A stretch of 64,000 bases of DNA from Dokdonella immobilis. GTDB lineage: Bacteria; Pseudomonadota; Gammaproteobacteria; Xanthomonadales; Rhodanobacteraceae. Location: the NCBI RefSeq assembly GCF_900115085.1, contig NZ_FOVF01000020.1, forward strand, positions 1-64,000, in the 5' to 3' direction. Within the stretch, counting starts at the first letter, position 1. Each line of letters opens with the position of its first letter. Below are positions 53,384 to 58,270 of the stretch, piece after piece. Under the pieces are notes generated by a model, which saw only the letters and a list, made by a program, of their open reading frames with translations, was not told the DNA's origin and ran no database searches. A program made the position numbers and the translations under genes.

Positions 53384-53533
53384 CGGGATTCGGGATTGGG
53401 GATTCGGGATTCGTGCAACAGCCAGCCCGCGACAAACTCGGATGGTTCGTCAATCTCGTTACGACGAGATGGGCAGGTGAAGTTGTAGAGCGCCGCGCTT
53501 CTACGAATCCCGAATCTCGAATCCCGAATCCCC
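53384..53533. repeat. GGGATTC heptamer inverted-repeat element (intergenic copy)
   Basis: Four tandem heptamers (GGGATTC or GGGATTG) at 53385-53411 and four inverted ones (GAATCCC) at 53505-53532 form a 29-bp imperfect palindrome (two mismatches) around a 91-nt spacer. It sits between the convergent thrE and dps genes and could fold as a long hairpin in either transcript. A related, larger copy lies inside hrpA at 55962-56231. Confidence 0.8.
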
Positions 53534-53552
53534 GCTCAAGTTGCGCGCAGCG

Positions 53553-54020
53553 CTACTTGAGCAATGAGCGCAACATCCAGGCGGTCTTCTCGTGCGCCTC
53601 GACGCGCTGGGTGGCGAGATCGGCGGTCGGCTGGTCGTCGGCCTTGTCGGCTACCTTGATCGTCTCGCGTGCGGTGCGTGCCGCGGTTTCGTGGCCTTCG
53701 ACCAGTTGCGCGACCATATCCTTCCACTCCGGTACGCCGGGTTCTTCCTTGATCGAGGTCAGCTTGCCGAACTGCGAATAGGAGCCGGGGGCCATCACAT
53801 CGAGGGCCCTGATGCGCTCCGCGATGACGTCGTTGGCCAGCCACAGCTCGTTGTACTGGGTCTCGAACATGACGTGCAGGCTGTTGAACATCGGCCCGGT
53901 CACGTTCCAGTGGAAGCTGTGCGTCTTCAGGTAGAGCGAATAGTTGTCGGCGAGCAGTCTGGACAGGTGATCGGCGATCTTCTTGCGATCCTTGGCGGAA
54001 ATGCCGATATCGATGGTCAT
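53553..54020 (-). CDS. dps: Dps family ferritin-like protein
   Basis: 155 residues from ATG 54020, preceded by GGAGAG; the longer open frame upstream is shadow. Ferroxidase residues are in [12 protein letters not shown] (His34, His37) and the following helix ([19 protein letters not shown], acidic ligands). Four-helix bundle with the usual Dps end ([15 protein letters not shown]). Forms a 12-mer that stores iron, consumes peroxide and can protect DNA. The short basic N-terminus (SAKDRKK) could assist DNA contact. Divergent from hrpA; an OxyR-like dyad lies upstream. Confidence 0.94.
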
Positions 54021-54184: not shown

Positions 54185-57100
54185 ATGTCCGAACTCTCCA
54201 AACTGAAGCCCGCGCTGGATGCGGTCGCGACGCGTGATCGCGGTCGCCTGATCGGGCGCTTTCGTCGCCTCGAAAAGATCGGGGCGGACGCTCCGGCTGA
54301 CCAGGTATCCCGGTTGCGCGCCGAGATCGAGAATTCGGTGGCCCGCGTCGCCGCACGCGCGCAAAGGCTGCCGGCGATCCGGATCGACGAGTCCCTGCCG
54401 ATCGCCGCCCGTAGCGAGGAGATCGTCAAGCTGATCCGGGAACACCAGGTCATCGTGCTGGCCGGCGAGACCGGTTCAGGCAAGACCACCCAGCTTCCGA
54501 AGCTTTGCCTCGCCGCCGGACGCGGCGTACAGGGCATGGTCGGCTGCACCCAGCCGCGCCGCATCGCCGCGCGCACGGTCGCCCGCCGCGTCGCCAGCGA
54601 ACTCGATACGACGGTCGGCGACCTGGTCGGCTTCCAGGTGCGCTTCACCGAACAGGTCGGCGATGCCGCCCTGATCAAGTTCATGACCGACGGCATCCTG
54701 CTCGCCGAAACCCAGGGCGACGCCTGGCTCAGCGCCTACGACACGATTATCCTCGACGAGGCCCACGAGCGCAGTCTCAACATCGATTTCCTCCTCGGCT
54801 ATCTCAAGCGCCTGCTGGCCAGGCGCCGCGACCTGAAGCTGATCGTGACCTCGGCGACCATCGACACGTCCCGCTTCGCCGCGCATTTCGATGATGCGCC
54901 GGTGGTCGAGGTCGAAGGTCGTACCTGGCCGGTGGAAGTGCGCTGGCGCCCGCCGCCCGAACGCGGCGAGTCGAACACGGTCGAACAGATCGTGGCCGCC
55001 GTCGACGAGATCAGCGCCGAGGATCCGCGCGGCGACATACTCGTGTTCCTGCCCGGCGAGCGCGAGATCCGCGATGCGCACCTGGCCCTGGAGCGACGCA
55101 AGTACCGCGAGACCGAAGTGCTGGCCCTGTACGCCCGGCTCTCGGCAAACGAGCAGGACCGCGTGTTCAGGCCCGGGCCCAAACGCCGCATCGTGCTGGC
55201 CACCAACGTCGCCGAAACCTCGTTGACGGTGCCGCGCATCCGCTTCGTGGTCGATACCGGCACGGCCCGCGTCAAGCGCTACAGCCAGCGCGGCCAGCTC
55301 GAACGCCTGCACATCGAGCCGATTTCGCAGGCCGCCGCCGACCAGCGCAAGGGCCGCTGCGGGCGCGTCGCTGCCGGCATCTGCTATCGGCTGTACGCCG
55401 AGGACGACTTTGCCGAACGCCCGCGCTTTACCGACCCGGAAATCCTGCGCACCTCGCTGGCCGGGGTGATCCTGCGCATGCTGAGCCTGAAACTCGGCGA
55501 AGTCGCTGATTTTCCGTTCGTCGAGGCGCCGCATGAACGCGCGATCGGCGATGGCTACCGGCGCCTGATCGAGATCGGCGCGATCGACGAGCAGCACCGC
55601 ATCAGCGCGATCGGCCGCACCATCGCCAGCCTGCCGGTCGATGTCGCGCTGGCGCGCATGCTGGTCGAGGCAGAACGTCTCGGCGTGTCCCGCGAGATGA
55701 TGATCCTGGTCTCGTTCCTGAGCATCCAGGACCCGCGCGAACGCCCCGCCGATGCCCGCCAGCAGGCTGACGCCGCACATGCCGTCTTCACCGATGCGAA
55801 ATCCGATTTCCTCGGCGTGCTCAATCTCTGGGCCGCCTACTCTGCCGCCCACGAAGACATGACCCAGTCGAAACTGCGCGACTGGTGCCGGGCGAACTTC
55901 CTCTCGTTCCTGCGCATGCGTGAATGGCGTGAACTGCATCGGCAGTTGCTTGTTTTGAAGCCGGGATTGGGGATTCGGGATTCGGGATTGGAAGAGCCGG
56001 GATTTGGGATGACCAGCCGTTCGGCTGTTGGAAGCCGGGATTCGGGATTCGGCAAAGCCAAGATCAAAGGCAGAGGCAAGGGCGGGCGCCAAGGCCAAGG
56101 TCAAGAGCAAAGCGGGGTCAATCGCGCGCGCGTCAACATGAGCGCGCCGTCCCGCTCTTTTTCGAATTCCGAATCCCGAATCTCGAATCCCGTAGCTTCA
56201 ACCAATCCCGAATCCCGAATCCCGAATCCCGACAACGGTGAAGCCATTCACCGTTGTCTGCTCTCAGGCTGGCCGACCCAGGTCGGGCGCAAGGACGAGC
56301 GCAATGTCTATCGCGGTACGCGCGAACGGCGCTTCGCGATCTTTCCGGGTTCGGCATTGGCGAAAGCGCCACCGCAGTGGGTGCTGGCCGGACAGATCCT
56401 CGACATCGGCAAGGTCTATGCGATGCAGTGCGCACGCATCGAGCCACGCTGGATCGAGGAGCAGGCGGCGCATCTGGTCCGGCGCAGCTGGCACGACGCG
56501 CACTGGTCGCGCAAGCGCGGTGCCGTCGTTGCCTACGAGCAGGTCAGCCTGTTCGGCCTGGTCCTGGTCGAGAAGCGTGCGGTCCAGTTCGGCAGGCAGG
56601 ACCCGGCCGAAGCGCACGCGATCTTCGTGCGCGAGGCGCTGGCAACTGGCGAGATCGACGCGCGCGCCGACTTCATCCGGGCCAACCAGCGCACCCTCGC
56701 GCAGGCGCAGGAGCTCGAAGCGAAGCAGCGTCGCGCCGGCTTGCTCAAGTCGAGCGAGGAACTCGCGACCTTTTTCACCGACCGCCTGCCGGCCGATATC
56801 CACAGCAGTGCGGCGCTCGATGCCTGGTACCGGCGCGCCAGCCCGTCCGAGCAGGCGGCCCTGCGCTGGTCGTTGGCCGACGTGCTTTCGACCACGCCGG
56901 GCATCAGCGCGCAGGACTTCCCGACCCATCTACCGATCGGCGGACACAGCTTGCGCCTCGAATACCGGTTCGTCCCGGACGATCCGGCCGACGGGGTCAC
57001 CGCCCAGGTGCCACTGGCCCTGGTCAATGCGATTCCGGCCAGCGCCTGCGAATGGCTGGTGCCAGGCCTGCTGAGCGAGAAGGTCGCCGAGATGATCCGC

Positions 57101-58270
57101 GGCCTGCCGAAGTCGCTGCGGCGCAATTTCGTGCCGGCGCCTGACTTTGCCCGCGCCTTCGTCGAGTCGATCGCAGCGCCGGCCGACGCACGCGAAGGCC
57201 CGCTGGCCGGAGCACTCGCGGCCTATCTGAAGAAGGTCACCGGCGTCGACATCGGCGCCGGGGACTTCGCCGGGATCGCGCTGCCTGCCCACCTGCGCAT
57301 GCGCTTCGACGTGCGCGACGGCAGCGGGCGGCAACTGGCCGCGGGTCGCGACCTAGAAGCGATCCAGGCGCAATGGGCCGCGGCGGCGCGCGAGGCCTTC
57401 TCGCAGCGTGCCGATGCGGAACTGACCCGCGAGGACCTGTCCGGATTCGACATCGACGACATCCCCGAATCGATCCGTTCCCCGGAAGGCCTGGTGGCCT
57501 GGCCGGCCCTGGTCGATCTCGGCGACAGCGTGGCCTTGCGCGTGTTCGAGAATGCCGATGACGCCCGCGATGAACACCGTCGCGGCGTCGAGCGCCTGCT
57601 GCGCCGCGCGCTCGCCGACAAGGTCAAGCAAGCGCGGCGGCAATTGCCGCTGGCCAATACGACAGCGCTGAAATGGGCGGCCCTTGGCAGCGCCGAGACC
57701 CTGCGTGCGGATCTGGTCGAAGCGGCCCTGGCCGAGCGCCTGCAGGCACTGGCGCCTGCTGCACGCACGCGGGCCGAGTTCGACAAGCTCACGGCACAAC
57801 TTGGCAGGGAACTGTTTGCCGCCGCGGTCGAGCGACTCGCACTCGCCGAAGCGATCATCGAGGCGCACGCGGAACTGGTTCCGTGGCTGGAGCCGCCCCT
57901 GCTCGGTTTCGCCGCGGCAAATTATGAGGACCTGCTCGAACAGCGTGACGAGCTGCTGGCGCCGGGTTTCCTTCGCGACACCGATCCGGCCCAGCTCGCG
58001 CACTATCCGCGCTACCTGCGCGGCATGCGCCTCCGCGCCGAGCGCTTGCGCCACGACCCGGCCCGCGACCAGGCCCGCATGCTCGGTGTGCAACGCTACT
58101 GGCGCGAATACCTCAAGCGTCGGTCCGGCAGTGAGGGCAACCGCGAAGCCCTCGAGACGTTGCGCTGGCTGATCGAGGAGCTCCGGGTCTCGGTGTTCGC
58201 GCAGGAGCTGCGCACGGCCGAGCCGGTATCGCCGAAGCGACTGGCCAGGGCGCTGGCCGCGCTCGAATAG
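54185..58270 (+). CDS. hrpA: ATP-dependent RNA helicase HrpA with a repeat-derived insertion
   Basis: 1361 residues from ATG 54185; a start at 54044 is possible but less likely. DEAH-box helicase with Walker [10 protein letters not shown] (94-102), DEAH at 191-194, the SAT motif and the QRKGRCGR motif VI. HA2 and OB-fold regions and the DUF3418 C-terminal domain follow. It acts in mRNA processing and ribosome-stall relief in E. coli. Between [10 protein letters not shown] (about residue 585) and [10 protein letters not shown] (about residue 688) there are about 90 residues not found in other HrpA proteins, encoded by heptamer repeats: peptide units such as GIRDSGL and NPESRIP. The frame remains open throughout. 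Whether the protein is functional with this insert cannot be seen. Confidence 0.93.
55962..56231. repeat. GGGATTC heptamer element inserted in hrpA
   Basis: Forward heptamers at 55963-55990 and, shorter, at 55999-56010 and 56037-56052 face inverted heptamers at 56163-56192 and 56203-56231. The intervening 110 nt include AAGGCCAAGG-type purine-rich sequence. The whole element is 270 bp, a multiple of three in its effect on hrpA, and encodes HrpA residues about 593-683. It is related to the copy at 53384-53533 by unit sequence and palindromic layout. Confidence 0.8.

Follow-up and report, generated by a model that had tools for sequence, protein, structure and literature searches.

Introduction

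Quadruplex-forming heptamer repeats were described in Xanthomonas (unit GGGNATC) and Nostoc by Rehm et al. 2015 (PMC4692102). According to the available parts of that report, 83% of the Xcc repeats are found in Xac, related species largely keep them in the same gene context, and the repeats of Xcc and Xac vary in length and sequence; their role was left open. In-frame palindromic insertions are also already known, as far as the accessible text of the sources goes. The palindromic elements (RPEs) of Rickettsia, for which PMC10969869 and PMC3733652 cite Ogata et al. (2000, 2002), are inserted in frame into unrelated genes and are apparently tolerated. Intragenic REPs of the GTAG/CGTC type occur in coding regions of several bacteria, including RNA helicases of O. 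terrae (PMC3733652). Template switching between inverted repeats was reported for coding DNA of yeast (PMC8604942) and for E. coli (PMC7202029), again judged from parts of these papers.

Here, a stretch of 64,000 nucleotides from Dokdonella immobilis (the window) was analysed, which carries a heptamer element in frame in the helicase gene hrpA. The element contains tandem GGGANTN heptamers (two or more units), the pattern of the repeats of Rehm et al., and the Dokdonella family shares with these repeats the preference for four units and the convergent inverted pairs (61 pairs within 300 nt). The repeats of Rehm et al. are mostly intergenic and their defining unit in Xanthomonas is GGGAATC, whereas the arms of the hrpA copy are built from GGGATTC/GGGATTG units. 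The exact GGGAATC unit is absent from this copy, though it is present in the ortholog of the closest relative (G008). The available parts of that account describe neither junction hairpins nor copies that persist in frame within conserved genes, nor fixed sites at which both arms have changed their heptamer type. Like the RPEs, the element is found in frame in several unrelated conserved genes (hrpA, lpxB, icmF and metH). It differs in taxon and, by the citing descriptions alone, in the element itself; furthermore, the slot in Dokdonella is used by unrelated repeat families. REPs, as described in the accessible text of PMC3733652, are single hairpins, which the heptamer arrays are not, and the arrays show no link to the presence of Y1_Tnp. 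The GGGGWSAS motif of transposase-flanking inverted repeats given there fits the GGGGTCAG repeat in the hrpA linker of another Dokdonella (G006). With the cases of template switching, as far as these are described in the parts consulted, the process proposed here shares a homogenisation of arms that would alter amino acids with no selection needed; it differs by a recurrent element and by a junction that tracks conserved codons. Among the listed matches of an open-licence literature search (titles and beginnings of abstracts), nothing was found on repeats in the HrpA linker, on a change of heptamer type at fixed sites or on codon-tracking junction hairpins.

Judged from sequence comparison, the hrpA segment is probably (about 0.6) an old, tolerated copy of a palindromic repeat that belongs to the quadruplex-heptamer class and has a high copy number; its arms would be homogenised by template switching.

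The hrpA gene and anatomy of the element

The hrpA gene (54185..58270, + strand) encodes a DEAH-box RNA helicase of 1361 residues. Its frame extends from the ATG at 54185 to the stop codon at 58270, is open through the element and contains no stop between. The product is assigned to HrpA by NCBIfam TIGR01967 (1471 bits, cut-off 723). The Pfam domains DEAD, Helicase_C and HA2 are all located before residue 545; OB_NTP_bind (688–763) and DUF3418 (777–1358) follow the element. The initial annotation had described a 270-bp in-frame GGGATTC inverted-repeat element between the helicase part and the OB-fold/DUF3418 part, and both the element and its position are confirmed.

The element (55962–56231, 270 bp) is formed by convergent GGGATTC arrays. 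Its outer arms comprise 30 nt each, are 97% complementary and lie 210 nt apart. The outer left arm (55962..55991, +) contains four GGGATTN heptamers and the outer right arm (56202..56231, −) four heptamers on the complementary strand. Inner arrays are present at 56036..56052 (+) and 56161..56192 (−); like the outer arms, they were detected by an inverted-repeat search. The sequence further contains a short internal palindrome, CAGCCG-TT-CGGCTG (56014..56027, +), and a core (56103..56159, +) that ends with AAGAGC...GCTCTT like the compact copies described below. The GGGATGACCAGCC..CGGCTGTTG stretch around the palindrome recurs in another copy of D. immobilis (L144) and in one copy of G008 (ortholog of L143 3117-3256). 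A second, intergenic copy upstream of hrpA (53385..53532, +) was recognised as a GGGATTC cluster. At its right end a junction hairpin of 8 bp, GCTCAAGT...ACTTGAGC, is found (53534..53562, +), of which G008 has a 17-bp version. The window contains 17 GGGATTC heptamers (9.28 expected, sd 3.06), a number reached in 1 of 100 shuffles, and 15 of the 17 fall in these two clusters.

Comparison of D. immobilis (G000) with G008 gives a dN/dS of 0.083 before the element (590 codons) and of 0.122 after it (675 codons). Since both values are low, hrpA is functional in both species. The element is the sole stretch of the gene with an identity below 62%, excepting the extreme 3' windows that reach intergenic DNA.

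The hrpA linker in the genus Dokdonella

The hrpA gene was found in all ten genus genomes searched, including that of D. immobilis. Six of these (G000, G008, G002, G009, G004 and G005) have an in-frame heptamer element at the same linker (228–372 nt between the anchors), and they form a clade in the tree of this analysis. The spelling of the element is ATT in G000 and G002, AAT in G008 and G005, mostly AGT in G009 and mixed in G004, which is at odds with the species tree. Even the closest relatives differ: the heptamer is GGGATTC in D. immobilis and GGGAATG in G008, and the bases adjoining the element are nearly identical in the two. In G007 the linker (189 nt) is perhaps a decayed remnant. 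In G006 a different palindrome, GGGGGTCAGAGTCACTTTTC, is found, and the linkers of G001 and G003 contain no repeat.

That a mobile repeat entered hrpA recently and in this strain only, as the initial annotation implied, is highly improbable with the slot filled in six of ten genus members that form a clade. New arrays do arise, because the array in metH is present in D. immobilis only, among nine genomes read (G002 left out). The refuting case named in the initial annotation, an insertion shared by relatives with conserved sequence, holds by half: the slot is shared, but the sequence is not conserved and even the heptamer type differs. The exaptation that had been considered is unsupported: positive evidence was not found, and the linkers of relatives hold other repeats or none.

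In G001 (L016) and G003 (L017) the two halves of hrpA are in offset frames, which reflects either a sequencing error in GC-rich DNA or a split or frameshifted HrpA. These two linkers are all that could be cited for hrpA being a pseudogene or an assembly artefact, and nothing in the D. immobilis genome points that way. The low dN/dS on both sides of the element speaks against it, and the same architecture is present in five other assemblies; this explanation is extremely improbable.

The HrpA linker in the Lysobacterales

In E. coli HrpA the linker comprises 7 residues. In the Lysobacterales it is long and variable, with 177–435 nt between about the same anchors. The element had been said to add about 90 residues, which is correct in comparison to E. 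coli (86 unaligned residues versus 7) but not within the order, where the linker is natively of this length. Thus, the element sits in a variable linker, most of which it supplies, and does not interrupt a fixed domain. An AlphaFold2 run on a 384-aa fragment of HrpA (27 sequences) gave pLDDT values of 29–38 and no secondary structure for the block of residues 596–677; the flanking blocks have values of 60–72 (before) and 66–93 (after). The linker is accordingly predicted to be disordered. With the gene under purifying selection and this region predicted as disordered, the view that the repeat is tolerated in frame is supported.

RNA folding z-scores of −3.5 or lower were obtained for 24 of 85 HrpA linkers of the order, versus 1/85 for the stretch just upstream and 2/85 just downstream; the 85 omit the loci L065, L082 and L104 (no linker by motif search), and L038 and L066 duplicate G005 and G002. 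The structured linkers inspected (part of the 24) stem from unrelated repeats. Heptamers of the types GGGATTC, GGGAATG, GGGGAAC and GAGGAAC were met. Other linkers contain CCCTCTCCCC palindromes, which are dispersed in three Dyella genomes (at least 90, 99 and 87 matches) and one Rhodanobacter genome (at least 45; BLAST on both strands, 40 candidates scored per genome); Dyella tabacisoli has one match. The linkers of G006, L111 and L114 contain GGGGTCAG palindromes. A high copy number is not apparent for these palindromes: the GGGGTCAGAGTCACTTTT arms are found at a single place in G006, the hrpA gene, and G003 has two elements with them. Perfect inverted repeats of at least 11 bp are present in 29/85 linkers, an uncontrolled measure that may include chance cases in GC-rich loci. 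Further long palindromes were seen in the hrpA linkers of L105 (Pseudoxanthomonas), L073 and L054.

Because relatives hold a differently spelled, an unrelated or no repeat at this position, the HrpA linker is a site that has been repeat-tolerant repeatedly. Within one bacterial order, unrelated palindromic repeats have come to lie in it time and again, and in this way it maps the places inside genes at which repeat DNA can reside. Linker peptides like GIRDSGF and PNPESRI should be regarded with caution, as translated repeat DNA and not as conserved motifs.

The element itself could be selected, either as structured mRNA (hairpin or quadruplex) that slows ribosomes and ties HrpA synthesis to its own helicase activity, or for a functional linker peptide. 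The predicted RNA fold of 55940–56270 indeed has −183.5 kcal/mol and a z-score of −10.9, and the recurrence of unrelated palindromic repeats together with the 24 structured linkers would fit. The linkers of Xanthomonas and Stenotrophomonas that were folded, on the other hand, have z-scores between −1.9 and 1.7, so a conserved mRNA structure in hrpA was rejected as a general rule. Similar copies are present in lpxB, icmF and metH, which do not encode helicases, and the linker sequence is unconserved. Selection for the element is therefore quite improbable.

The repeat family in the genome and in the order

In the genome of D. immobilis at least 134 BLAST matches to the element were found (a lower bound, with 40 of 103 candidates scored), in agreement with a high-copy repeat. 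Compact copies in 40 stretches of this genome are about 90 bp long. They begin with four heptamers and close with four on the opposite strand; the variable spacer between these is often preceded by AAAGAGC and often followed by GCTCTTT. Arrays of at least three units are of the GGGATT type (ATT) or the GGGAAT type (AAT) and seldom mixed in the stretches of G000 and G008. The array counts given here cover arrays of three or more units. Exactly four units are present in 80 of 107 arrays in G000 (stretches and window) and in 39 of 48 in the G008 stretches. The latter comprise 40 AAT, 5 ATT and 3 mixed arrays; the ATT share in the G000 stretches is biased, since these were partly picked by similarity to an ATT-type query. 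Eight unusually long arrays (10 to 18 units) are found among 102 in the G000 stretches L118-L157, and one array (L127, G000) switches from ATT to AAT units.

Of 299 genomes sampled from the order, 97 have three-unit arrays, as do 39 of the 85 genera, with a patchy distribution; a reversed control pattern also matches some genomes of the order but none of the ten Dokdonella genomes. Stop-free frames account for 53% in 59 paired elements versus 22% in shuffles (maximum 26%), and for the left arms alone 96% of the frames are open. The element is probably tolerated because the linker is disordered and heptamer arrays are almost without stop codons. The frame would be kept open by these near-stop-free heptamers together with selection on the frame.

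Y1_Tnp domains (PF01797) are found in nine of the ten genus genomes. At the domain level their distribution does not follow that of the arrays: Y1_Tnp without arrays is seen in G001, G003 and G006, and arrays without a Y1_Tnp match in G009. The co-occurrence with a Y1_Tnp gene that characterises REPs/REPINs with a RAYT is hence not seen in these ten genomes, and a RAYT was rejected as the mover of the arrays. Inspection of element copies by eye revealed neither a target duplication nor a common core.

In-frame copies in lpxB, icmF and metH

Further in-frame copies in D. immobilis are located in lpxB, icmF (two sites) and metH, genes named by Pfam and NCBIfam. They were found by a screen of the 40 G000 stretches for stop-free frames with high third-position G+C, by which copies can be missed.

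The lpxB site contains ATT arrays in G000, AAT arrays in G008 and G002, decayed AAT in G009 and mixed, doubled arrays in G005 (ATT/AGT on the left side, AAT on the right); lpxB of G001 and G007 has no repeat, and the comparison leaves out G003 and G004. The search gave no match for lpxB in G006 or for icmF in G008. In D. immobilis, what appears to be the N-terminus of LpxB (L120 1327-1481) is itself encoded by a heptamer array, and the G008 ortholog (L233) has an array of a different type.

In icmF (L154 in G000, and orthologs) two linkers with heptamer arrays bracket native coding sequence. At site 1, the arms flank a native coding helix. Both of them are of the ATT type in G005, G000, G002 and G009 have two mainly AAT arms, and the arms of G004 are mixed. 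The occupant of site 2 differs by species (heptamers, repeats of the GTAGAGCGGAGC or GCGGGAGAGGG kind, or a GGGGTCAG palindrome), and in G002 the left array is AAT and the right one ATT.

The four-unit array in metH (L151, G000) replaces the native linker at equal length in comparison to G008 (L182) and G009 (L183). Because the length is unchanged, this array is not a simple insertion and looks like overwriting.

Orthologous sites in D. immobilis and its closest relative

Among 57 clusters in G000, 15 have both flanks in the G008 stretches, which cover roughly one fifth of the G008 genome; one of these 15 is a chance cluster. At the resulting 14 orthologous sites (flanks 85–97% identical), G008 is clearly occupied at 12, has remnants at one and is empty at one (metH). 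Ten sites are ATT in G000 and AAT in G008, one is ATT in both and one is chimeric in G008. The chimeric array is located at the 53385 site and has outer ATT and inner AAT units. None of the 61 convergent pairs in G000 and G008 combines an ATT with an AAT arm, and three have one mixed arm. For independent arms, this concordance has a probability of about 2e-6 over the 39 pure G000 pairs.

The cores at the 14 sites mostly align no better than mismatched pairs. As exceptions, two high scores include native flank and the N-terminal copy in lpxB scores above 26 mismatched pairs; the hrpA core is second to one of 26 mismatched pairs. Some other intergenic stretches of the window are likewise unalignable with G008, which weakens lost core homology as proof of replacement.

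Alternatively, a RAYT or some other transposase could move whole elements as cassettes that home to the same sites, and the type seen in G008 would then stem from a new copy that replaced the old element. The clear occupation of 12 of 14 sites with a different type at ten, the unalignable cores and the widespread Y1_Tnp domains are in line with such cassettes, and the chimeric array at the 53385 site would fit a nested replacement. The Y1_Tnp distribution, however, does not follow the arrays, and the inspected copies have no target duplication or common core. Furthermore, icmF site 1 has arms of different types in different species around a native coding sequence that stayed in place, which contradicts a cassette swap as the sole cause of the type change. 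Taken together, mobile cassettes are unlikely.

Junction hairpins and arm matching

The right end of the hrpA element is adjoined by a perfect hairpin, GACAACGGTGAA-GCCA-TTCACCGTTGTC (56231..56258, +), found by the inverted-repeat search. Its right arm encodes the conserved IHRC and its left arm is the reverse complement of this stretch. All 12 positions are paired in five of the six species with the element and 9/12 in G009, whereas 2–5/12 are paired at this position in 14 comparators. Pair 5 varies in a compensatory manner (A-T, C-G, G-C, T-A), and the hairpin co-varies with the conserved IHRC/VHRC codons. Two of the comparators (L040 and L064) have heptamer arrays yet lack the right-hand hairpin; G007 and L039 perhaps contain remnants. 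In L064 an inverted repeat of 11 bp is located at the left end.

Similar hairpins adjoin the arrays in icmF and lpxB. In lpxB, comparison by eye of the hairpin left of the array (L120 in G000, L160 in G002) showed that both of its arms differ together between the two species. Perfect stems of at least 9 bp are present at 14 of 154 outer array ends (9/106 in G000, 5/48 in G008; one row, L147, excluded for a run of N) and at none of 604 positions 120–370 bp further out (0/414 and 0/190; Fisher p ~1e-10, with loci partly non-independent). On the core side, 1/107 (G000) and 1/48 (G008) were counted, and 11 of 4000 N-free random positions have such stems (3 and 8 of 2000).

Our preferred reading, the tolerated repeat copy with homogenised arms, comprises the following steps. 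The element would be a copy of a dispersed repeat with two convergent arrays, usually of four GGGANTN heptamers, around a variable core. It probably entered the HrpA linker in the ancestor of the six-species clade, where the disordered linker and the nearly stop-free heptamers in any frame would have allowed its tolerance. Template switching during replication between the inverted-repeat arms may then keep arms and junction hairpins matched, with one arm, or the conserved coding sequence at the junction, as the template for the other. If the arms are matched in this way, the linker peptide would be a by-product of DNA palindrome turnover and not a selected peptide. The slot shared by six of ten species, the low dN/dS, the low pLDDT, the open frames, the concordance of arms, the junction hairpins and the other in-frame copies make this reading the probable one. 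Through the mostly matched arms and co-varying hairpins, the change and persistence of these heptamer repeats also become accessible at the level of sequence.

Unmatched or mixed arms at icmF site 2 of G002, in lpxB of G005, at icmF site 1 of G004 and in hrpA of G004 speak against homogenisation, and the unalignable cores of orthologous sites in G000 and G008 are left unexplained by it. Matching at junctions is not general, with a long perfect hairpin at only 14 of 154 outer ends and no right-hand hairpin in L040 and L064 despite their arrays. The equal-length replacement in metH also speaks against this reading, as it does not correspond to a simple insertion.

A more active process is conceivable, albeit doubtful, in which palindromes are written at fixed sites and arrays together with the coding sequence they touch are rewritten as matched inverted copies. 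If so, sister species could come to differ in heptamer spelling at most of the sites they share, and a stretch of a conserved helicase would be dictated by DNA structure instead of protein function.
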